This document shows, one piece after another, positions 516 to 11,177 of a stretch of DNA of 11,177 nucleotides (position 1 is the stretch's first letter; every line of letters starts with the position of its first letter). A model generated the notes under the pieces. It did no database searches and was not told the origin of the DNA. It saw only the letters and a program-made list of their open reading frames with translations. The DNA comes from Gammaproteobacteria bacterium (GTDB taxonomy: Bacteria; Pseudomonadota; Gammaproteobacteria; Chromatiales; Chromatiaceae). Location: the NCBI GenBank assembly GCA_029287695.1, contig JARFQQ010000217.1, forward strand, positions 1 through 11,177, in the 5' to 3' direction. The translations under genes and the position numbers were made by a program.

Positions 516-1166
516 ATGCTCACTGATCAAGCCAGAGAAAACATGATTGAACAGCAGATCCGTCCCTGGAACGTCATCGATGAGGATGTGCTCAATGTCA
601 TGAAACAGATTCCACGCGAATTCTTTGTTCCGGAGGAATACAAGGATCTGGCTTTTGCCGACACGGAAATCCCGATCGCGGAGGGTCAGTCAATGATGTC
701 GCCAAAAATCGAGGCGCGCATGCTGCAGGCGCTGGCAATCAAGCCCGGTGACAGGGTTCTCGAGATCGGCACCGGTAGTGGCTACATCACCGCCTGCCTG
801 GACTGGCTCAGCGACGAGGTGACATCCATCGAGATTTTCGATTCGCTCTCCAGCCAGGCGCAGGAGCACCTTGCTGCATTTGGCATCCGGGACGCAAAAC
901 TCGTCATCGATGATGCTTTCTCATATGAGTTCCTTACTCTCTTCGATGTCATTGCCGTCACAGGCAGCCTGCCGGTCCCGACAGACATGTTTGAAAAGCT
1001 GCTTGCCACCGGCGGCCGCCTCTTCCAGGTCGTCGGCCAGGGGGCATCTGCCAGCGCACAACTGGTCACACGTGTTGCTGACGAGATCTTCCACCGTGAA
1101 GAGCTTTTCGAGACCGCCCTGCCCCCGCTGATCAATGCCCCCGAACCGAAGCGCTTCAGCTTCTGA
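516..1166 (+). CDS. Protein-L-isoaspartate O-methyltransferase-like protein
   Basis: A 216-residue class I SAM-dependent methyltransferase of the protein-L-isoaspartate O-methyltransferase (PIMT) family. Family members methylate L-isoaspartyl residues in aged cytosolic proteins to start their repair. SAM motif I is VLEIGTGSGY (residues 81-90), followed by an acidic TSIEI strand (103-107), the FDVIAVTGSLPVP strand (143-155) and GGRLFQVVGQG (166-176). The N-terminal helices (QIRPWNVIDEDVLNVM, then PREFFVP) and length match the family. ATG 516 has GAGAA at 504-508 upstream and gives the usual N-terminus. It is atypical: the classical GQTIS(Q/A)P substrate loop reads GQSMMSP (57-63), and the TAAPPEIP segment reads TGSLPVP. 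It may therefore be a diverged paralogue with another substrate. The stop shares a base with the next start, so the two genes are probably cotranscribed and translationally coupled. Family is secure; true PIMT activity is less so. Confidence 0.88.
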   Translation: MLTDQARENMIEQQIRPWNVIDEDVLNVMKQIPREFFVPEEYKDLAFADTEIPIAEGQSMMSPKIEARMLQALAIKPGDRVLEIGTGSGYITACLDWLSDEVTSIEIFDSLSSQAQEHLAAFGIRDAKLVIDDAFSYEFLTLFDVIAVTGSLPVPTDMFEKLLATGGRLFQVVGQGASASAQLVTRVADEIFHREELFETALPPLINAPEPKRFSF

Positions 1167-1390
1167 TGACAGGTCCTGAAGAGAAAGATCCGCAGGAGCC
1201 CGGCCTGCTTGCACACGCCGGGAGTGTGCTGGCCGCCTTTTTCGGCGTGCAAAGCAACAAGGCGCGTGAGAGAGATTTCACCAAAGGGAAACCCTCTACC
1301 TATATCATTCTCGGGATCATTCTGACGATCGTCTTCATCCTGCTGATCTTCGGTGTCGTCAAGCTGGTGCTCTCTCTGGCAGGCGTTTGA
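1166..1390 (+). CDS. DUF2970 small membrane protein
   Basis: A 74-residue protein whose ATG overlaps the TGA of the methyltransferase gene by one base (TGATG), implying translational coupling. The N-terminal 19 residues are polar and variable. SVLAAFFGVQS (20-30) and RDFTKGKPS (36-44) are the conserved DUF2970 signatures. A single transmembrane helix spans roughly 45-71 (YIILGIILTIVFILLIFGVV), with almost no C-terminal tail. DUF2970 proteins occur mainly in beta- and gammaproteobacteria and have no established function that I know of. The likely topology is an inner-membrane protein with its charged N-terminus in the cytoplasm. Downstream, GAAGAGA (1389-1395) can pair with TCTCTTC (1429-1435) around an inner GCGGAGATCCGC, a possible weak terminator. 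Confidence 0.85.
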   Translation: MTGPEEKDPQEPGLLAHAGSVLAAFFGVQSNKARERDFTKGKPSTYIILGIILTIVFILLIFGVVKLVLSLAGV

Positions 1391-1717: not shown

Positions 1718-2377
1718 CTAGTCTTCACCCAACCCCGCAAGCCGCTCGGCATTGGCGACATTCTCCATCATGCATTCGGTCACCTCGCAGCGCACGTCTT
1801 CAGGCTCTTCCGTGAGGCGCTTTCTGTCCACGAAGCAGGGAGTGCCCAGCGAGATCCAGACCGTCGAAAAGGGTTTCGGCAGACGGTGGCGATCCCAGGA
1901 GGTGAAAACCCACTGCCGGTCAGCAACGAAGTGGTAAGGCACGATCGGACACCCCGACATGGCACTGATCATCAGGATGCCCGTCTGCAGCTCATGCCGG
2001 GGGCCTCGCGGACCATCAGGGGTGATGGCGGCCGGGTGTCCCTTGCGCAGCAGTCTGACCATCGCCTTGGCGGCCTTCGAGCCGCCCTTCGAGGAGGAAC
2101 CGCGCACCGGAATGTTTCCGCAAAGTTCGATGCCGCGAGCGATGATAGCGCCATCCTTGCTGTCACTGGCCATCATTGCGCAGCCCGTGTCTCTCTCCGT
2201 ATAGACGCTGACAGCGGTGTTCTCGTGCCAGGAGCCGAAAATCCAGCTCTTCCCGTCTGCTGCGAGTTTTTCGAGCGACTCCCGGCGGCTGAAACGCACC
2301 TTGCAGGTAGCCATCAGCAGTCCGATCAGCAGCCGGTAGAGTCCCGGTAAAAGAAACAGCAGAATTTTATCTTTCAT
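1718..2377 (-). CDS. DUF374 lysophospholipid acyltransferase-like protein
   Basis: A 219-residue protein of the DUF374 branch of the lysophospholipid acyltransferase superfamily. Members are thought to transfer acyl chains to lipid acceptors at the inner membrane. An N-terminal hydrophobic segment (residues 4-23) is a likely membrane anchor. The core runs from GSWHENTA (48-55, with the putative catalytic His51) through SDSKDGAIIARGIELCG (71-87) to ITPDGPRGPR (118-127), the best DUF374 signature. Its ATG overlaps the waaA stop in ATGA (2377-2374), so it is almost certainly cotranscribed and translationally coupled with waaA. That points to a role in lipid A/LPS or another envelope lipid. The substrate is not known, and it is not a classical LpxL/LpxM by sequence. 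The gene ends directly against a tandem repeat. Confidence 0.85.
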   Translation of the reverse strand: MKDKILLFLLPGLYRLLIGLLMATCKVRFSRRESLEKLAADGKSWIFGSWHENTAVSVYTERDTGCAMMASDSKDGAIIARGIELCGNIPVRGSSSKGGSKAAKAMVRLLRKGHPAAITPDGPRGPRHELQTGILMISAMSGCPIVPYHFVADRQWVFTSWDRHRLPKPFSTVWISLGTPCFVDRKRLTEEPEDVRCEVTECMMENVANAERLAGLGED

Positions 2378-3645
2378 GATGACTCTTTCAGGGATTGCTG
2401 CAGAAGCTGTGCAACGCAGTCGAGCGCACCCTGGTTACGCTCGACCACGTCGAGTCCTGCCTGGCCTATTACCGTGCGTCGCTCCGCACTATCGAAGAGT
2501 TCGAGCAGGACCCGGGCCAGCTCGCTGCTATCGGCGACCTGCACAAGGGCTCCTGCATCGAGCATGAGTTGTGTAATGCCGAGAAAGTTTTTCATATGCG
2601 GGCCGACAATGACGGGCAGGCCGAGAGACGCGGGCTCCAGGACGTTATGTCCTCCGACAGGCATGAGGCTGCCTGCCACAAAGGCGACATCGGCTGCTGC
2701 AAAGAAAACCGTGAGTTCTCCCATGGTATCGCCCAGATAGACCTGGCTTTGCTGCCTGCAAACCGGATTTTCCGAACGCCTGCAGTAACTGAATCCCTGT
2801 CGGTCAACCAGTGCGGCGACATCGTCAAAGCGTTCGGGATGCCTGGGTGTCAGCACCAGTAGCGCATCCGGATATTTCGCCAGGATTTTCCTGTGGACAT
2901 CGAGCAGCAGCTCGTCCTCGCCGGGATGGGTACTGGCCGCGACCCAGACATGACGTCCGGTGCCCCACGAGGTGCGCAACAGCTCGCCATGTTCCCTGAT
3001 GCTCGCAGGAATGCGGACATCGAACTTGACGCTGCCGCAGGTATGGACCTGTTGTCTGTCGGCGCCAAGCGTTACGAATCGCCCGGCATCCTGGCTGTTT
3101 TGTGCAGCAATGGCAGCAAAGCTCCTGATCGCGGGTGCAATGAGTGCGCGGACACGCTGGTAGCCTTTTGCGGATGGTTCAGAGAGGCGTGCGTTGGCGA
3201 GTACGACCGGTGTCCCCCGCTTCTTGCAAAGATGCATGAAGTTAGGCCATATCTCGGTTTCCATCACCACGATCAGCCTTGGCTGGAAAGCACGCAGTGC
3301 GCGCCTGATCGCGAATGGAAGATCGTAGGGGAAATAGATGTGGGTCACCGTGTCACCATACATCTGTGTGACACGGTCGGCGCCGGTCGGTGTCGTTGTC
3401 GAGATCACGACAGGAACGTCCGGCAGATTTTCACTCATCCAGCGCATCAATGGCTGTGTTGCCTGGGATTCGCCGACAGAGACAGCATGAATCCAGATGC
3501 AACCCTCGGGAACGGGACGCTGGTAGATGCCGAAGCGTTCCGCAGCGCGCTGGCGGTATCCCGGATTCCTGCGCCCACGCCACCACAACCGCAACAGAAC
3601 GAACGGTATCAGCAGGTAGAGCAAGAGGGTGTAGAGGAGTCTCAA
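2374..3645 (-). CDS. waaA: 3-deoxy-D-manno-octulosonic acid (Kdo) transferase
   Basis: A 423-residue WaaA/KdtA, essentially the length of the E. coli enzyme. It transfers Kdo from CMP-Kdo to lipid IVA at the cytoplasmic face of the inner membrane, the first step of LPS core assembly. It has an N-terminal hydrophobic anchor (1-20), then RWWRGR-type basic residues. WIHAVSVGES (51-60) contains the expected catalytic glutamate, Glu59. The segment VMETEIWPNF (127-136), the NARLSEPSAKGY stretch (151-162), the sugar-nucleotide domain from about 230, and GGHNVLEP (331-338) are all present. The start is TTG (3645-3643): an in-frame TAA lies two codons upstream, and the conserved RLLYTLLLYLL N-terminus begins immediately, so no better start is available. 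There is no clear Shine-Dalgarno, suggesting modest translation. An extended -10 promoter candidate lies upstream, and the DUF374 gene follows with an overlap. Confidence 0.96.
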   Translation of the reverse strand: MRLLYTLLLYLLIPFVLLRLWWRGRRNPGYRQRAAERFGIYQRPVPEGCIWIHAVSVGESQATQPLMRWMSENLPDVPVVISTTTPTGADRVTQMYGDTVTHIYFPYDLPFAIRRALRAFQPRLIVVMETEIWPNFMHLCKKRGTPVVLANARLSEPSAKGYQRVRALIAPAIRSFAAIAAQNSQDAGRFVTLGADRQQVHTCGSVKFDVRIPASIREHGELLRTSWGTGRHVWVAASTHPGEDELLLDVHRKILAKYPDALLVLTPRHPERFDDVAALVDRQGFSYCRRSENPVCRQQSQVYLGDTMGELTVFFAAADVAFVAGSLMPVGGHNVLEPASLGLPVIVGPHMKNFLGITQLMLDAGALVQVADSSELARVLLELFDSAERRTVIGQAGLDVVERNQGALDCVAQLLQQSLKESS

Positions 3646-3822: not shown

Positions 3823-3838
3823 TGGCATGCTAATTGCA
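3823..3838 (+). promoter_or_regulatory. Sigma-54 (RpoN) promoter for the ANTAR regulator
   Basis: The sequence TGGCATGCTAATTGCA matches the -24/-12 consensus TGGCACGRNNNTTGCW at all but two of the defined positions. It keeps the essential GG and GC dinucleotides and the exact spacing. Initiation would fall near 3849, 18-27 bases before the plausible starts of the downstream gene. This also excludes the upstream TTG at 3834 as the real start, because it would not be transcribed. A GCATGC-N7-GCATGC dyad at 3685-3703, about 150 bases upstream of the start point, is at a typical distance for an enhancer-binding activator, but it does not match the NtrC consensus well. Confidence 0.65.
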
Positions 3839-3866: not shown

Positions 3867-4430
3867 ATGGCCAACGTGTGGCGACTGGCAATCATCTCGG
3901 AAGACAAGAATGCCCCGACTGCCCTGTCCGGGCTCGATTTCGTCCATTTTGCAGGACACTTCTCGCCAGATGATGATCCCGAATCGATCATCGCCGATGA
4001 GACACTCGATGCACTGCTATTGATCACGCAGGGACTCGAAAAGGTGCAGGATTCACTTCCGCGAATGGCCGAGAAGCTGCCGGTTCTGCTTTTCACCGAT
4101 GATGACCGCGTTGAGCAGATCAATCTCGCGCTGAAAAACGGGATCAGTTCCTATGTCATCAGAGGGTTCGATCCGCAACGTCTCGAACCCCTGCTGAAAG
4201 TCGCGATAACGCGTCATCGCCAATCCATGGAACAGCACGAGCGCCTCAGGCGCATCGAGAGCGCGCTCACAGAGCGCAAGTCCATCGAGCGCGCCAAGGG
4301 GCTCATCATGCAGCGCAAGCAGTGCAGCGAGGACGTGGCCTACCAGGCGATGCGTCGGCTCGCCATGAGCAGCAACAGGAAAATTGCCGATATCGCCAAC
4401 GATGTCATCAGGGCCTCGGGCCGGTTATGA
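3867..4430 (+). CDS. ANTAR-domain regulator with degenerate receiver (NasT/AmiR-like)
   Basis: A 187-residue two-domain protein. Residues 4-118 have a receiver-like alternation of strands and helices (RLAIISED, DALLLIT, LPVLLFTDD, SYVIRGFD). Residues 124-186 are a clear ANTAR domain, with ERKSIERAKGLIMQ followed by SEDVAYQAMRRLAM and IANDVI. ANTAR proteins bind paired hexaloop hairpins in nascent RNA and antagonise transcription termination, often in nitrogen or amide metabolism. The acidic pair and a Thr after strand 4 remain, but the phospho-acceptor position after strand 3 is Ile53 and the switch Lys is Arg99. Control is therefore probably by a partner or ligand, as for AmiR, not by phosphorylation. 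ATG 3867 is used here. GTG 3876 (MWRLAIISED) is equally plausible because GGAG at 3862-3865 is 10 bases from it but only one base from the ATG. A sigma-54 promoter lies upstream and Anbu follows after 71 bases. Confidence 0.85.
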   Translation: MANVWRLAIISEDKNAPTALSGLDFVHFAGHFSPDDDPESIIADETLDALLLITQGLEKVQDSLPRMAEKLPVLLFTDDDRVEQINLALKNGISSYVIRGFDPQRLEPLLKVAITRHRQSMEQHERLRRIESALTERKSIERAKGLIMQRKQCSEDVAYQAMRRLAMSSNRKIADIANDVIRASGRL

Positions 4431-4501: not shown

Positions 4502-5236
4502 ATGACTTACTGTCTCGCGCTGAAGCTCAATGAGGGCCTGGTCTTCTGTTCCGACTCGCGTACCAACGCAGGAGCAGACCAGGTCAGCACCTACAGCAAG
4601 ATGCACCGCTGGGGTATCGATGGCGAGCGACAGTATGTCCTGCTCAGCGCCGGGAATCTCGCAACCACCCAGAGTGTTCTCAACCGCGTACAACGCGATA
4701 TTGCGGAGGGCGCCGAGGAGTCACTTGCCAACATGCGCTACATGTCCGATGCAGCGGCCTATGTGGGCAAGCTCAACAAGGCCGAACGCGAACGGCATGT
4801 CTCCCCTGACGATGTCAATGCAGGCTTCAATCCGGCCGCGACACTCATCCTTGGTGGACAGATCCGCAACGAAGAGCCGCAACTCTTTATGATCTATCCT
4901 GAAGGCAACTACATCAGCGTCTCGGATATCACGCCATTCCTGCAAATCGGCGAGAAGAAGTACGGAAAGCCGATTCTGGACAGGATCATACGCACAGATA
5001 CAGATGTCGACTCGGCAGTACGCTGTGCGCTCGTCTCCATGGATTCGACCATGCGCTCGAATGCGACCGTCGGGCCGCCAATCGAACTGCTCGTCTACAA
5101 GAGCGACAGTCTCACGGGAGGCTGCTACCACGCGTTTGACGATAACCATGCCTACCTGCAGTCGCTGCGCAGAAGCTGGGACGAGAAAGTGATCAACGCA
5201 TTCAACGAAATGCCTTCGCTGCCACTGGATTGCTGA
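4502..5236 (+). CDS. anbu: Anbu, bacterial proteasome-like peptidase (COG3484)
   Basis: A 244-residue N-terminal-nucleophile hydrolase of the Anbu family, the usual length. After removal of Met1, Thr2 becomes the N-terminal nucleophile (MTYCLALKL). Asp18 in SDSRTNAG and Lys33 in YSKMHRWGI correspond to the proteasome Thr1/Asp17/Lys33 triad. LLSAGNLATTQS (47-58), FNPAATLILGGQ, LFMIYPEGNYI and the conserved ALVSMDSTMRSNATVGPPIELL region complete the beta-subunit core. There is no propeptide and no signal peptide, so it is cytosolic and matures by Met removal. The structurally studied Anbu proteins form open ring or lock-washer assemblies. Its substrate is unestablished. It sits convergent with three amidoligase/transglutaminase genes that usually accompany Anbu, and 71 bases downstream of an ANTAR regulator gene on the same strand. 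No clear Shine-Dalgarno precedes the ATG. Confidence 0.94.
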   Translation: MTYCLALKLNEGLVFCSDSRTNAGADQVSTYSKMHRWGIDGERQYVLLSAGNLATTQSVLNRVQRDIAEGAEESLANMRYMSDAAAYVGKLNKAERERHVSPDDVNAGFNPAATLILGGQIRNEEPQLFMIYPEGNYISVSDITPFLQIGEKKYGKPILDRIIRTDTDVDSAVRCALVSMDSTMRSNATVGPPIELLVYKSDSLTGGCYHAFDDNHAYLQSLRRSWDEKVINAFNEMPSLPLDC

Positions 5237-5239
5237 GTA

Positions 5240-5284
5240 GCACCGCCCTTTCCCCGTGACTGAGGCTCCGTCAGTAAGCGGTGC
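5240..5284. terminator. Convergent-gene hairpin, possible bidirectional terminator
   Basis: GCACCGC (5240-5246) pairs with GCGGTGC (5278-5284), and a nested ACTGA (5259-5263) pairs with TCAGT (5271-5275). It fills the 50-base gap between the stop codons of Anbu and the convergent transglutaminase gene. Only a short CTTT follows on the plus strand and no T-run on the minus strand, so intrinsic termination would be weak. A perfect GCCTTTAAAGGC palindrome (5283-5294) overlaps the transglutaminase stop. Confidence 0.4.
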
Positions 5285-5286
5285 CT

Positions 5287-6159
5287 TTAAAGGCGCTCGA
5301 CATTGACAGCCACTCCCAGTCGATGCTTGCCACCGCCATAGACAACGCCCTTGAGCGGCGCGACATCGGCATAATCTCGTCCCCAGGCTGTCGTAATATG
5401 CTGATCGAGAGGAATCCTGGCGTTGGTCGGGTCGAAATCCATCCAGCCGCGCTGGGGTACGTAGATGCTGAACCAGGCATGTGACGCATCGACACCGACC
5501 AGCTTCTCCTTTCCCTCCGGCGGCAGAGTCTCGATATAGCCACTCACATAACGTGCCGCGAGCCCCATCGAGCGCAGGCAGGCAATCGCGAGATGCGCAA
5601 AATCCTGACACACGCCGCGCCTGTGGGCGATGACATCCTGTAGCGGGGTCGCGATAGTCGAGAATCCCGGGTCATAGGTGAAATCCCGGTTGATGCGATG
5701 CATCAGGTCTTCCACGCCTTCGATCAGTGAGCGTCCCGCTGGAAAAGATGACTGCGCATACTCGACGACTGCCGGACCGGCTTCGGTAAAATCCGTGCGC
5801 AGGAGGTAGAGTCGAGCCTCCAGTGTGTCGGTATCCTTTTCCGTCTTCATCATCTCTGCTGCACTCTCCCAGCTGACAGGAAACAGCATGTCGAGAGCCG
5901 CACCGGTTTCCAGCTCAACCTCGCTGGTTGCCCGAACGACCAGCCTGTTATGGGGCTTCTCTATTGAGAAATTGACCTGTCTGTTTCCAAAAAGATCTGT
6001 CCACTCATTCACGCTGGATGGTTGTGGTTCGATGTGTAAAGCACTCGAGAGACAACGCTGCTGGCGGGTGTTGCGCACCAGGAGGCGTGCCACGTTGTGA
6101 CAGAGGGAAACATTGCTGCTGTAGTCATAGGTTGTCGAGTGGGTGACGCGGTATCTCAT
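5287..6159 (-). CDS. Transglutaminase-like cysteine protein (COG1305)
   Basis: A 290-residue protein. It has an N-terminal beta-rich Bact_transglu_N region (1-90, beginning MRYRVTHSTTYDYS with HNVARLLVRNT) and a C-terminal transglutaminase/papain-like core. The catalytic triad is intact: Cys184 in RRGVCQDFAHLA, His227 in DASHAWFSIY and Asp243 in DFDPTN. Proteins of this fold cleave amide bonds or transfer acyl groups to amines. In Anbu clusters this one is predicted to act as a peptidase or amidase on a ligase product. There is no signal peptide, so cytosolic action is expected. The start ATG (6159-6157) has a GGGGA Shine-Dalgarno 6 bases away and overlaps the stop of the upstream ATP-grasp gene in ATGA, implying translational coupling. 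It is the last gene of its operon, ending convergent to Anbu. Confidence 0.92.
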   Translation of the reverse strand: MRYRVTHSTTYDYSSNVSLCHNVARLLVRNTRQQRCLSSALHIEPQPSSVNEWTDLFGNRQVNFSIEKPHNRLVVRATSEVELETGAALDMLFPVSWESAAEMMKTEKDTDTLEARLYLLRTDFTEAGPAVVEYAQSSFPAGRSLIEGVEDLMHRINRDFTYDPGFSTIATPLQDVIAHRRGVCQDFAHLAIACLRSMGLAARYVSGYIETLPPEGKEKLVGVDASHAWFSIYVPQRGWMDFDPTNARIPLDQHITTAWGRDYADVAPLKGVVYGGGKHRLGVAVNVERL

Positions 6160-8726
6160 GAGTCTTCCCCGGAACGCAGCCGGACAAGCTGATGCGGCAT
6201 TTCGGCAGCCTGGAAGTAGGCGGCAGTGATGGCATTGGAGAGAGCCGGCAATCTCCCGGCGAGGACACCGAGAAATTCATGCAGCAACTCGCGCGATCCT
6301 GTCTGTTTGGTGGTTGTGGAGAGACGATTGATATCCGCGAGCCTGACCAGTGTTGCCGTTTCGAGAGCGAGTCGCTCGATTTCACTGCGGCTGCCCGTAT
6401 CCCGCTTGTCTGGCAGGCCGGCAACATGTTCCTCGATCCTTGTCATCTGGTAGGCAAGCGAACGTGGATTGTTCTCGTCACAAATGACGAGATCGAGCAT
6501 GAGTGGAATCTCTGCATCCTCGCGATAGCGCCGCCTGTAGGTCATGAGGCTGTCCACGATGGTGAGCACAGAGTCGCGCAGGAGACTCTCGTCGTCGATG
6601 CCATGGGATGTGGAGAGCATGCTTTCCAGCAGCCGGCTGATTTGCAGGGCGCGTTCGATCCGCCGCCCCATGTCGAGAAAACGCCAGCTGCGGCCACGCG
6701 TGATGTTTTCGAGCGTCAGGCCTGAAAAAGCCGTCAGGGCCGTGATGAGATTGTCGAATTCATCGAGCGCATCGATGATATTCCCGGGCTTAATATTATA
6801 AAGCGCATTAGATTCATCATCTATATCATTGATAATACGCCATGTATCCGAAGAAAGCCTGTCACGCACCGAGCGCGCGGTACGCAGAAAGGAGGAGAGT
6901 GTCTGCATCAGACTGCCGGAGCTGGAGCGATCGCAAATGACGCGGTATAACTCGTTCCGCGCTGCCTCTGGATCACCCGTGGGCAGATTGAGAAAACCCG
7001 GCCAGGTCATGGTCTGCTTCGTCACGCTCACGAGCAGCCTGTCGAACGCCTGCGTGCCGGCACCCTCCCCCGTCTCGAGAAATTGCAGCGCCAGTCGCAG
7101 CAGGCGGCTGACAAATTCCGCACGCTCTGCATAGCGCCCGGTCCAGAACATGTTGTCTGCGACGCGCCCCGGGACAGCACCATGCCTCTCCGGGACATAG
7201 ACAGCATGCTGGCGCTCGCCGAGGAGGCTGACCTGTTTCTCCGGCTCTGTCGCAAGCACCCAGGTATCCTTGCTGATACCACCCGCCTGGCTCGTCACGA
7301 TCAGCTGGTCGTTGCTGGAACCGACCCGCGTCAACCCTCCTGGCATCACCATGTAGCCATGCTCCTCGGCAACGAGAAATGCGCGCAGGACAGCATGGCG
7401 CGGCTTTAGGCTGTCGCCATCGAAAACCGGCAGGCTCGACATTGGAAGACGCTCCTGGGCGATATAGTGGAGAGGGTTCGCCTGAATCCTGGCTTTCAGT
7501 TCCTCGCGATCTGCTGTCGATAACTCATCGCCGAAACGCGATCGAAAACCCATGGATTGATGCACGGGCTTGATAACCAGATTCTCCAGGTTGGCGAGGA
7601 CATGCTGACGCTCGAGCGGATCGCCGCACCACCAGGTCTCCACGGACGGCAGCATGAGCTCCTGTCCAAGCAGCAGGCGGGCAAGCTCGGGAAGATAGCG
7701 CAAGAGTGCAGGACTTTCGAGGATGCCGCTGCCAAGCGGATTGGCCACAGCAACATTCCCGGCACGCACTGCGTTCATCAGTCCGGGAACCCCGAGATAG
7801 GAATCCTCGCGTAACTCGACGGGGTCGCAGTAGCTGTCATCCATGCGGCGCAGGATGACATGGACGGGGCGTAAGCCCTCCAGTGTCTTGAGCCACACCC
7901 GCTCTTCGCGCACGACCAGGTCGCTGCCCTCGACAAGCGTATAGCCGAGATAGTTGGCTAGATAGGCATGCTCGAAGTAAGACTCGTTTGCAGGCCCGGG
8001 ACTCAGCAGGACGATCGTTGCCTCTTTCTCGTCACTCGAGGGCGCATGACTGTCCAGCGTATGGCGTACGGTTCTGAAATAGCTTGCCAGACGGTGTGTA
8101 TGTGAATCCCGGAAAAGGCTCGGCAGGACGCGCGAAATGACGATCCTGTTCTCGAGCGCATAGCCGGAGCCGGAGGGGGCCTGGGTTCTGTCACTGAGAA
8201 CGCATGTCTCGCCGTTGCGGTCTCGCACGAGATCTGCAGCATAAAAGACAAGCTGACTCGAGATGGCCATCCCGGGGTTGATACAGGGAATCAGGTATCC
8301 GGGATGCGAATGGAGCAACTCTGGCGGCAATACCCCCTGACTGACGAGCTTTCGTGGTCCGTAGAGGTCCTGCAGGAGCAGGTTGAGTAATTCGGCACGT
8401 TGCATGAGCCCGCTTTCGAGGCCGGCCCAGGTATCACTTTCGAGGAGATGTGGTATGAGGTCGAGTTTCCAGGGACGTGTCGTGCCGCCACGCTCGCCAT
8501 AGAAATTGTAGGTGACGTCGTTCTCGCGCATCTGGCGCCAGGTTTCATCGCGCCGCTTGCGCAACTCCACCGGCCCCATCTGTTCAAGCGCCTCCATGAG
8601 ATAAAGCCAGTGCGGACGCACCTCCCCTGCAGGGTCGCACATTTCATCGTGACAGCCGGGCGGAATATAGTCCGTGCAAAGCGAGCGTGCGCTATCCGGT
8701 GTGATCTCTGTCGATTTCTGTTTCAA
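6156..8726 (-). CDS. Circularly permuted ATP-grasp ligase fused to Alpha-E domain
   Basis: An 856-residue fusion of two parts that in other genomes are often separate proteins (COG2308 and COG2307). Residues about 20-500 are a circularly permuted ATP-grasp domain: RVRPHW-like EVRPHW (35-40), NFYGERGGTTRPW (74-86), SGSGYALENR (185-194), LLSPGP (240-245), GSGILESPAL (332-341), NLVIKP (382-387), YIAQERLP (421-428) and MPGGLTRVG (461-469). This predicts ATP-dependent carboxylate-amine ligation. Residues about 515-845 are the all-helical Alpha-E domain, starting at VADNMFWTGRYAERAE (522-537). The start is TTG (8726-8724): no ATG lies between it and the upstream in-frame TAG, and the next in-frame Met (29) would cut the conserved CHDEM segment. 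An AGAAG sequence 8 bases upstream is a weak ribosome site. The gene lies 75 bases after the DUF2126 gene and overlaps the transglutaminase gene. The amide product is unknown. Confidence 0.93.
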   Translation of the reverse strand: MKQKSTEITPDSARSLCTDYIPPGCHDEMCDPAGEVRPHWLYLMEALEQMGPVELRKRRDETWRQMRENDVTYNFYGERGGTTRPWKLDLIPHLLESDTWAGLESGLMQRAELLNLLLQDLYGPRKLVSQGVLPPELLHSHPGYLIPCINPGMAISSQLVFYAADLVRDRNGETCVLSDRTQAPSGSGYALENRIVISRVLPSLFRDSHTHRLASYFRTVRHTLDSHAPSSDEKEATIVLLSPGPANESYFEHAYLANYLGYTLVEGSDLVVREERVWLKTLEGLRPVHVILRRMDDSYCDPVELREDSYLGVPGLMNAVRAGNVAVANPLGSGILESPALLRYLPELARLLLGQELMLPSVETWWCGDPLERQHVLANLENLVIKPVHQSMGFRSRFGDELSTADREELKARIQANPLHYIAQERLPMSSLPVFDGDSLKPRHAVLRAFLVAEEHGYMVMPGGLTRVGSSNDQLIVTSQAGGISKDTWVLATEPEKQVSLLGERQHAVYVPERHGAVPGRVADNMFWTGRYAERAEFVSRLLRLALQFLETGEGAGTQAFDRLLVSVTKQTMTWPGFLNLPTGDPEAARNELYRVICDRSSSGSLMQTLSSFLRTARSVRDRLSSDTWRIINDIDDESNALYNIKPGNIIDALDEFDNLITALTAFSGLTLENITRGRSWRFLDMGRRIERALQISRLLESMLSTSHGIDDESLLRDSVLTIVDSLMTYRRRYREDAEIPLMLDLVICDENNPRSLAYQMTRIEEHVAGLPDKRDTGSRSEIERLALETATLVRLADINRLSTTTKQTGSRELLHEFLGVLAGRLPALSNAITAAYFQAAEMPHQLVRLRSGEDS

Positions 8727-8801
8727 GGTGATTCTTCTTGCGAGAATGCGATGCGGCTATAGAAGACTTTACGCATTTATCATCCGCAGGGAAACAGCCG
8801 T

Positions 8802-11177
8802 CTAGCACCCGGGTAACTTGCGCAGGTCAAGCGTCCAGGGGTATTCACTGGTCGTCTCCTCGAATTCGGGATCGAATTCTCCCTGGGTGTGTCCGATATC
8901 GCGGAAACGCGCAATGCGACGTGATTCGGCTTCGTTGGCATTGACAGGGAAAGTCTCATAGTTACGCCCGCCCGGGTGTCCCGAGAAATAGGTGCAACCA
9001 CCGATTGAGCGCCTGTTCCAGGTGTCGTAGATATCGAACACGAGCGGCGTATGGACGCCGATGGTCGGATGCAGTCCAGAAGGAGGCTGCCACGCCTTGT
9101 AGCGCACTCCGGCGACGAATTCGCCCCTGCGGCCGGTCGACCGCAAGGGCACGCGCCGGCCATTGCACAGCACGATATGGCGATCTTCTGTCATGCCATT
9201 GATTCTGACCTGCAGACGTTCCACAGCGGAGTCGACGAATCGTGAGGTGCCCTGGGCAGTCACCTCTTCTCCAAGGACATGCCAGGGTTCGACGGCCGTC
9301 CTGAGCTCAAGGTGGATATCCTGCCGGGTGATCTCGCCGATGTGGGGAAAGCGAAACTCGAGGAATGGCGCAAACCACTCGAGCCTGACCGGATAACCGA
9401 AAGACTGCAGTTCGCAAATGACATCCTCCAGGTCCTGCCAGACGTAGTGCGGCAACATGAACCTGTCATGCAGCTCGGTTCCCCAGCGCACCGGTTTTTT
9501 ACGGTATGGCTCCCGCCAGAAGCGCGCGATGAGTGCCCGGAGCAGCAACATCTGCACAATACTCATGCGCGCGTGCGGCGGCATTTCGAAAGCACGGAAT
9601 TCAACCAGGCCGAGACGTCCGCTGACTCTCTCGGGTGAGTAGAGTTTGTCGATGCAGAACTCCGAGCGATGCGTATTGCCGGTCAGGTCGACCAGCAGGT
9701 TTCGCAACAGCCGGTCGACAATCCAGGGCGATGGCGTCTCCCCTTCCGGGATCTGCTGGAAGGCGATCTCGAGTTCGTAGAGACTTTCGTTGCGACCCTC
9801 ATCGACGCGTGGCGCCTGCGAGGTCGGACCGATGAAAAGACCACTGAAAAGATAGGAGAGCCCGGGGTGATGCTGCCAGTAGGTCACGAGGCTCTGCAGC
9901 AGGTCCGGCCGGCGCAGCATCGGGCTGTCCGCCGGCGTCAGCCCGCCGATGGTGACATGGTTGCCGCCACCGGTTCCGGTATGGCGACCGTCGAGCATGA
10001 ACTTCTCGGTCGCCAGCCGCGAGAGCCGCGCCTCTTCGTAGAGGGCTTGCGTATTCGTCACGAGTTCATCCCAGCTCTTCGCCGGGTGAATGTTGACCTC
10101 GATGACGCCAGGATCAGGCGTGATCGCAAAGCGTTTCAGACGATGGTCGCCGGGCGGCTCGTACCCTTCGAGGATCACGGGTATCTCGAGCTCGGCGGCG
10201 GTTGCCTCGATGGAACGGACCAGGTCGAGAAAGTGCTCCAGATGGGTAACGGGCGGCAGGAAGACGTAGAGCTTGCCGTCCCGTGGTTCCACGCAGAGGG
10301 CTGTGTGTATCAGCTTGCCGGCTTCCATACCGGGGGCTTCTCTCTCGCTGGTAGCTGCGGGGGTTGCTGCTGCATTGCCCGAGGGTTGCTGTTCCCTGTA
10401 GCCGAAGGGCGCGGATGCCTGTGGCCGCACAATCTGGTAGCGGCGTGCGATTTCGCCATAAATATCGCCAAGTTCCGGCCGCGATTCAAAGGTGCAACGC
10501 TCGATGAAAGTTTCACGCTCGCCCTTTTCCACCCATGGCAGCGCATCAAGCGGCAGCCGGTAACCCATTGGGGAGTCACCCGGCAACAGAAAAAGACGAC
10601 CGCGCCTGAATGACCAGGGCAAGCTCGCCCACCCCGGCTGCGAGGCAGTGTCATCCCACTTCAGCGGCAGGATATATCCCGTTGCCTTGCCAAGACCGCG
10701 GTCAAAAATCCGCCTCAGGCGCGAGCGTTCCTGCCGGTTCTCGAGCTTGTTGTCGGAGACATCGACGTTTTCCGGCAAGGTTCCCTCTTTCCACATGTAA
10801 TAGAAAGCATCCTCGTAGCCGGCTTGCACCGTCTCATCCGAAATGCCGAGATAGCGTGTCAGTGTGCTGACAAAGCGTTGCGCATCGGGGATATCGAGCT
10901 GTCGGGAAGTGTTCTCGTCCGCAAGCCAGCGAGGATCGTTCCACACAGGTACCCCGTCAGCACGCCAGAAACAGCCAAGTGCCCAGCGAGGAAGCGGTTC
11001 GCCCGGGTACCACTTGCCCTGCCCGTAATGGAGCACGGCACCCGGGGCAAAACGTTGCTGCAGCCTCTGAAGGAGATCGACAGCCAGTTCCCGCTTCTTC
11101 TTGCCAAGGGCGTTGATATTCCACTCGGCGCCATCCATGTCATCGATGGAGACGAAGGTCGGTTCGCCGCCCATCGT
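8802..11177 (-). CDS. DUF2126 putative amidoligase (COG4196), N-terminus missing
   Basis: The reading frame is open to the right edge; 791 C-terminal codons are visible. The ATG at 11174 is internal: TMGGEPTFVSIDD is a conserved mid-protein motif of this roughly 1,100-residue family, so about 300 residues with the usual N-terminal transglutaminase-like domain are beyond the window. Counting from that Met, the visible part has KWYPGEPLPRWALG (54-67), EGYEPPGDHRLKRF (336-349), IEVNIHP (358-364) and HTGTGGGNHVTIGG (398-411), the signature of a glutamine-synthetase-fold carboxylate-amine ligase core. An Ala/Pro/Ser-rich linker (about 261-285) separates the segments. It ends TLDLRKLPGC with TAG at 8804-8802. 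It is the most upstream visible gene of the operon leading to the ATP-grasp and transglutaminase genes. Enzymatic activity is predicted from family analysis, not proven. Confidence 0.92.
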   Translation of the reverse strand, partial: TMGGEPTFVSIDDMDGAEWNINALGKKKRELAVDLLQRLQQRFAPGAVLHYGQGKWYPGEPLPRWALGCFWRADGVPVWNDPRWLADENTSRQLDIPDAQRFVSTLTRYLGISDETVQAGYEDAFYYMWKEGTLPENVDVSDNKLENRQERSRLRRIFDRGLGKATGYILPLKWDDTASQPGWASLPWSFRRGRLFLLPGDSPMGYRLPLDALPWVEKGERETFIERCTFESRPELGDIYGEIARRYQIVRPQASAPFGYREQQPSGNAAATPAATSEREAPGMEAGKLIHTALCVEPRDGKLYVFLPPVTHLEHFLDLVRSIEATAAELEIPVILEGYEPPGDHRLKRFAITPDPGVIEVNIHPAKSWDELVTNTQALYEEARLSRLATEKFMLDGRHTGTGGGNHVTIGGLTPADSPMLRRPDLLQSLVTYWQHHPGLSYLFSGLFIGPTSQAPRVDEGRNESLYELEIAFQQIPEGETPSPWIVDRLLRNLLVDLTGNTHRSEFCIDKLYSPERVSGRLGLVEFRAFEMPPHARMSIVQMLLLRALIARFWREPYRKKPVRWGTELHDRFMLPHYVWQDLEDVICELQSFGYPVRLEWFAPFLEFRFPHIGEITRQDIHLELRTAVEPWHVLGEEVTAQGTSRFVDSAVERLQVRINGMTEDRHIVLCNGRRVPLRSTGRRGEFVAGVRYKAWQPPSGLHPTIGVHTPLVFDIYDTWNRRSIGGCTYFSGHPGGRNYETFPVNANEAESRRIARFRDIGHTQGEFDPEFEETTSEYPWTLDLRKLPGC

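Follow-up and report, generated by a model that had tools for sequence, protein, structure and literature searches.

The proteasome-like peptidase Anbu was named as a family in 2008, and the question of its substrate has stood open ever since (PMC5666114; this and all other papers given by PMC number are cited from the available part of their text). Other Anbu proteins form a split-ring assembly with a C-terminal helix (PMC8665760). The idea that the enzymes encoded beside Anbu make a tag that is later removed has been set out from Iyer 2009 (PMC6376114; Iyer 2009 is also cited in PMC5666114). Earlier work has already described the gene set, the tagging idea, and, for two species, nitrogen control. 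Here, we describe an Anbu gene and a set of putative amidoligase genes in a stretch of 11,177 nucleotides (nt) from a gammaproteobacterium of the Chromatiaceae (assembly GCA_029287695.1). The stretch, called the window below, is the entire contig JARFQQ010000217.1 of a genome that is 56.5% complete and divided into 226 contigs. New in our analysis are the one-way dependence of Anbu on the ligases, an enrichment of sigma-54-like promoter sites in relatives together with evidence contrary to it, the presence of two ligase types, and Peptidase_Mx as a further partner.

The module comprises the following features:

3823-3838, plus strand: sigma-54-like -24/-12 site, TGGCATGCTAATTGCA, with at most one mismatch to TGGCACN5TTGCW
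3867-4430, plus strand (start of the mechanical open reading frame, 3834): ANTAR-domain regulator gene of the antiterminator type (Pfam ANTAR, E 9e-19)
4502-5236, plus strand: Anbu proteasome-like peptidase (Pfam Proteasome, E 1e-8; solved Anbu-like chains)
5287-6159, minus strand: bacterial transglutaminase-like protein (Bact_transglu_N, E 1e-24; Transglut_core, E 2e-19)
6156-8726, minus strand: fused circularly permuted ATP-grasp and Alpha-E protein of 856 amino acids (aa), with a TTG start in the mechanical open reading frame (CP_ATPgrasp_2, E 1e-152; Alpha-E, E 9e-75)
8802-11177, minus strand: putative amidoligase of the DUF2126 family, its 5' end cut by the contig end (DUF2126 profile, E 0)

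These domain matches are far above chance. The initial annotation had named an Anbu with an N-terminal threonine, an intact Cys-His-Asp transglutaminase, and a permuted ATP-grasp with Alpha-E, and all three were borne out. Anbu matches five distinct solved Anbu-like chains (5loy, 5nyw, 5lox, 5nyj, and 5nyf; E 1e-69 to 3e-55) over almost its whole length. Once the Met is removed, Thr1, Asp17, and Lys32 are in place, and these residues are invariant across 27 aligned sequences. The protein also retains His34, Ser48, Leu52, and Thr55, which form the S1 pocket of Yersinia bercovieri Anbu (PMC6376114). The transglutaminase holds its Cys, His, and Asp in the motifs GVCQDF, SHAWF, and FDPTN (we assigned the triad to these motifs ourselves). 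For DUF2126, the family stood and the completeness did not. The piece is 791 aa long and covers profile positions 53-826. Its best full-length relatives have around 1118 aa and an N-terminal Bact_transglu_N and Transglut_core region, so a further domain of this kind probably lies beyond the contig end. In the DUF2126 alignment, made of the window piece and 31 relatives that are mostly full length, the presumed Cys, His, and Asp columns of this N-terminal domain (again our assignment) reach a conservation of at least 90%. A shorter, diverged DUF2126 relative was also observed (L015, L016, L018, and L019; frames of 713-809 aa, profile positions 343-826, and a weak N-terminal match). It occurs beside the long form in the genomes G015, G027, G074, G171, and G200.

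All three ligase-side genes are co-directional; the transglutaminase start and the ATP-grasp stop share 4 nt, and 75 nt separate the end of DUF2126 from the ATP-grasp start. This overlap and the short gap suggest that they probably form one operon. Anbu is convergent with this operon and lies outside it.

A link between these families by comparative genomics had been claimed; it was already known, and we found the co-occurrence to be strong. By the initial annotation, a lack of it in related genomes would have refuted the proposed system. In a small sample of 55 genomes, the source genome included, 15 have Anbu, 20 have Alpha-E, and 12 have DUF2126. All 15 Anbu genomes have Alpha-E. In 14/14 of the other Anbu genomes, Alpha-E lies in an open frame of at most 468 aa, as expected of an unfused ATP-grasp/Alpha-E pair. 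The source genome gave a fused-type Alpha-E alone, perhaps because this genome is incomplete. The initial statement that all expected partners are present was therefore right for the families and too strong as a whole, since Anbu usually stands with the unfused pair.

In a class-wide draw of 276 genomes, 53 have DUF2126, 84 have Alpha-E, 69 have Anbu, and 53 have Peptidase_Mx (41 strong, a count that leaves out 12 weaker matches). Association counts use 275 of these, without the source genome. Anbu and Alpha-E occur together in 65, Anbu alone in 3, Alpha-E alone in 18, and neither in 189 (p 2e-42). Two of the three genomes with Anbu and no Alpha-E have only partial Anbu matches (residues 1-124). 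DUF2126 is accompanied by Alpha-E in 52/52 genomes (p 1e-34) and by Anbu in 43/52. Anbu needs the ligases more than the ligases need Anbu: 65 of the 68 Anbu genomes have Alpha-E, and 18 of the 83 Alpha-E genomes are without Anbu. An enzyme acting on the ligase product therefore fits better than a general protease. The make-and-remove cycle for a tag that the initial annotation suggested is the idea already laid out in PMC6376114. The data favour a functional dependence of Anbu on the ligases and do not show a tag.

The ligases are of two types. Alpha-E genes of the class-wide draw were split manually on the basis of bit score and open frame. Among the 83 Alpha-E genomes, 78 carry an Alpha-E whose open frame is below 700 aa; the other five (G108, G167, G173, G262, and G266) have only frames of at least 795 aa and were counted as type I by score. 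The fused type was found in 25/275 genomes. By this hand sorting, 22 of them also have an Alpha-E in a frame below 700 aa, and the remaining three (G167, G262, and G266) carry, in a long frame, a further Alpha-E with a higher score. We also compared 80 Anbu loci, the best 80 of at least 593 confirmed matches and those nearest to the window Anbu. They are mostly gammaproteobacterial and related, and p values therefore overstate the significance. Unfused-type Alpha-E is present in 58 loci and window-type Alpha-E in 11; ten gene pairs were read as fused ATP-grasp/Alpha-E (847-864 aa). The window-type Alpha-E is found without the unfused type inside the stretch in 6/80 loci (L045, L062, L067, L078, L081, and L089), and L067 has a piece of an unfused-type ATP-grasp at its very edge. 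In the window, the fused kind stands together with DUF2126. Relative to Anbu, the nearest ligase gene is convergent in 42 loci, divergent in 15, co-directional in 8, and absent in 15.

There is a second peptidase at many of these loci. A gene for Peptidase_Mx (PF15887, plus a zinc ribbon) is present in 38/80 (for example, L022:10707-11747, minus strand), and in 36/80 it is placed tail-to-tail with Anbu, the two gene ends lying no more than 140 nt apart. HExxH is found in all 34 clustered members. A zinc-peptidase nature has been predicted for DUF2248 (PF10005; PMC3650047). In 52 loci with at least 6 kilobases on each side, Peptidase_Mx and DUF2126 occur together in 2, Peptidase_Mx only in 23, DUF2126 only in 14, and neither in 13 (p 0.0008, uncorrected for kinship). 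By genome, the two are positively associated (Peptidase_Mx in 19/52 DUF2126 genomes vs 22/223 others), and Alpha-E is present in 40 of the 41 strong Peptidase_Mx genomes. The source genome, at its 56.5% completeness, gave no Peptidase_Mx match. No paper tying Peptidase_Mx to Anbu was found in literature listings, outside of which most subscription papers lie; Iyer 2009 may mention it.

Nitrogen control of these genes is well supported. In Burkholderia cenocepacia, I35_5080 (DUF404/407), 5081 (DUF403), and 5082-5083 (transglutaminase domains) are 6- to 9-fold lower in an ntrC mutant and are named as common NtrC and sigma-54 targets (PMC5491218). In Pseudomonas putida, PP_2685-2688 are termed nitrogen-responsive (PMC7801951, PMC3325844), and the induction of PP2685 is listed as 11.1-fold (PMC3325844). 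The need for sigma-54 is supported in the first species and contradicted in the second. We scanned up to 300 nt upstream of genes for sigma-54-like sites with at most one mismatch, the sixth base having been widened to C/T after the window site was seen. The enrichment lies in other genomes, in which gene starts are profile-match starts and not start codons. Such sites precede 12/55 unfused-type ATP-grasp genes vs 16/818 other genes (p 1.6e-8); shuffling gave a mean of 0.33 and a maximum of 4 in 300 trials, and the opposite strand gave 3/55. Transglutaminase-DUF2126 genes have 2/18. No sites were found before Alpha-E (0/69), Peptidase_Mx (0/38), or other transglutaminase genes (0/23).

The initial annotation had set the extent of the system at 4502-11177. 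This range holds the four families and leaves outside it both the ANTAR gene and the sigma-54-like site. No other site in the window comes within one mismatch of the consensus. The site starts 44 nt before the ATG at 3867, directly ahead of which is GGAG. The source genome has rpoN. The ANTAR gene directly precedes Anbu. The Pfam search gave no Response_reg match for its protein, that is, no recognised receiver domain, and its solved relatives include NasR (4akk). From its family, a role in antitermination would be expected. None of the 80 other Anbu loci has an ANTAR neighbour. As a separate observation, a small acidic protein of 91 aa is encoded 71 nt upstream of Anbu in one locus (L035:6085-6360, plus strand); it has relatives in 11 loci and no Pfam or NCBIfam match.

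We suggest that these genes form a nitrogen-starvation amidoligase-peptidase module whose product is processed by Anbu, a reading to which we assign a probability of roughly 0.45. The ATP-grasp/Alpha-E protein and DUF2126 would join a carboxylate to an amine at the expense of ATP. The product would be an amide- or isopeptide-linked peptide, either free or on a protein, and the transglutaminase domains and Anbu would then cleave, exchange, or trim it. Nitrogen control, through NtrC and probably sigma-54, would turn the module on. A sigma-54-like promoter of its own seems to serve Anbu in this lineage, where the Anbu gene sits behind the ANTAR antiterminator. One-way dependence, the link to nitrogen, and a second peptidase on the same ligases make the question of the Anbu substrate testable: if the reading is true, the ligase product should pile up in nitrogen-starved cells that lack Anbu.

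Several observations weigh against this proposal. The window site is not beyond chance, as at least one such site appeared in 68/200 shuffles. Sites are not enriched before Anbu genes (1/82) or fused ATP-grasp genes (0/7), and the scan for NtrC-type sites was unconvincing. In the P. putida rpoN mutant, PP_2686-2688 still rise 14- to 20-fold vs 11- to 15-fold in the wild type (PMC7801951 Table 2), which lowers our confidence. For Anbu itself (PP_2685), the same table gives a rise of only 1.12-fold in the wild type, which speaks against its induction in that study; the values are 4.81-fold for relA/spoT and 1.45-fold for rpoN. Co-purification of Anbu with the ligases had been put forward as a check; pull-downs in Y. 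bercovieri, as given in the available text of PMC6376114, found no specific interaction with the operon partners, and the assays there found no peptidase activity on the substrates tried. Both of our structure models are of modest confidence.

The ligases could instead make a soluble amide such as glutathionylspermidine or a gamma-glutamyl peptide, which the transglutaminase-fold proteins and Anbu would hydrolyse to store or recover nitrogen, with no protein being modified. We regard this as doubtful, although it has points in its favour. The ATP-grasp half is nearest to 3n6x (named as a putative glutathionylspermidine synthase), glutathione synthetases, GspS, and YgiC, and marine metagenomes show the genes grouped with urea domains (PMC3597751). 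A search for tag candidates brought up no conserved tag gene. The predicted DUF2126 structure is nearest to YbdK in Foldseek. However, PafA and Dop, whose target is a protein tag, rank alongside YbdK, all of these likenesses to glutamine-synthetase-fold ligases being at background strength. An hhalign comparison of DUF2126 with GCS2 gave E 0.17, no better than controls (Anbu, E 0.084), and the longest alignment (149 columns vs 21-47 for controls). Anbu resembles processive proteasome-like peptidases (PMC5666114), which would be an odd tool for a small amide, and Peptidase_Mx, unrelated to it, is tied to the same ligases. A tag could also be used much as in pupylation: DUF2126 would be a PafA-like ligase, ATP-grasp/Alpha-E would build or activate the tag, and Anbu, joined in many relatives by Peptidase_Mx, would remove it or degrade the tagged protein. 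We consider this specific version unlikely. Equally improbable to us is that Anbu serves general protein turnover in nitrogen starvation beside ligases that are merely co-regulated. Plain degradation is favoured in PMC5666114 from the structure and proteasome-inhibitor binding, and the Alpha-E genomes without Anbu imply that the ligases work without it. Such a protease would not need ligases, yet Alpha-E is missing from only 3/68 Anbu genomes. The available text of PMC5666114 also gives no known AAA+ partner and no activity on BODIPY-casein and the peptides tried, which speaks against general turnover.

The rest of the contig carries the following genes:

516-1166, plus strand: PCMT
1166-1390, plus strand: small DUF2970 membrane protein gene, its start overlapping the PCMT stop
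1718-2377, minus strand: DUF374 acyltransferase
2374-3645, minus strand: KdtA

The module looks accessory within this genus. Anbu, Alpha-E, and DUF2126 matches were found in 0/5 same-genus genomes (72-93% complete). Two same-genus genomes keep PCMT-DUF374-KdtA at 54-65% identity without the module on the contigs examined; a TamA-like gene follows KdtA in one (L149), and the contig of the other stops there. These absences would fit genes that are neighbours by chance, a misassembly, or an accessory island that is dying, in which case the linkage would say nothing about function here. We hold this to be very improbable. Apart from the cut at the contig end, five distinct reading frames are unbroken, the same families cluster in 48/52 well-covered Anbu loci, and convergent order is the commonest. 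Across the 11 genomes searched, the nearest matches to the KdtA of the contig (up to 62% identity) come from the same genus.

Among known systems, the Anbu operon of Pseudomonas, Yersinia, and others has the same four families adjoining (ATP-grasp, Alpha-E, transglutaminase, and Anbu; PMC5666114, PMC6376114), and the window Anbu shares the catalytic and S1-pocket residues of the Y. bercovieri protein. In contrast to this operon, the window has a fused ATP-grasp/Alpha-E, DUF2126, a convergent Anbu, and an ANTAR gene before Anbu. The I35_5080-5083 cluster of B. cenocepacia (ATP-grasp, Alpha-E, and two transglutaminase-domain proteins, one of them large) has the same ligase families, under nitrogen control there, and DUF2126 is presumably what its large protein represents. 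In that cluster, ATP-grasp and Alpha-E are encoded separately, whereas they are fused in the window, and the available text on the cluster does not mention Anbu. The Pup-proteasome system (PafA, Dop, and Pup) differs. A search for Pup homologues in 12 Anbu genomes, whose control found that of Corynebacterium glutamicum, gave none, the source genome being incomplete; no AAA+ partner or 20S proteasome was seen here, and the fold match of DUF2126 is at background strength. The RimK/RimB and Rlo systems likewise pair an ATP-grasp ligase with a peptidase. They use other ATP-grasp and peptidase (aspartic) families, and their substrates are partly known.

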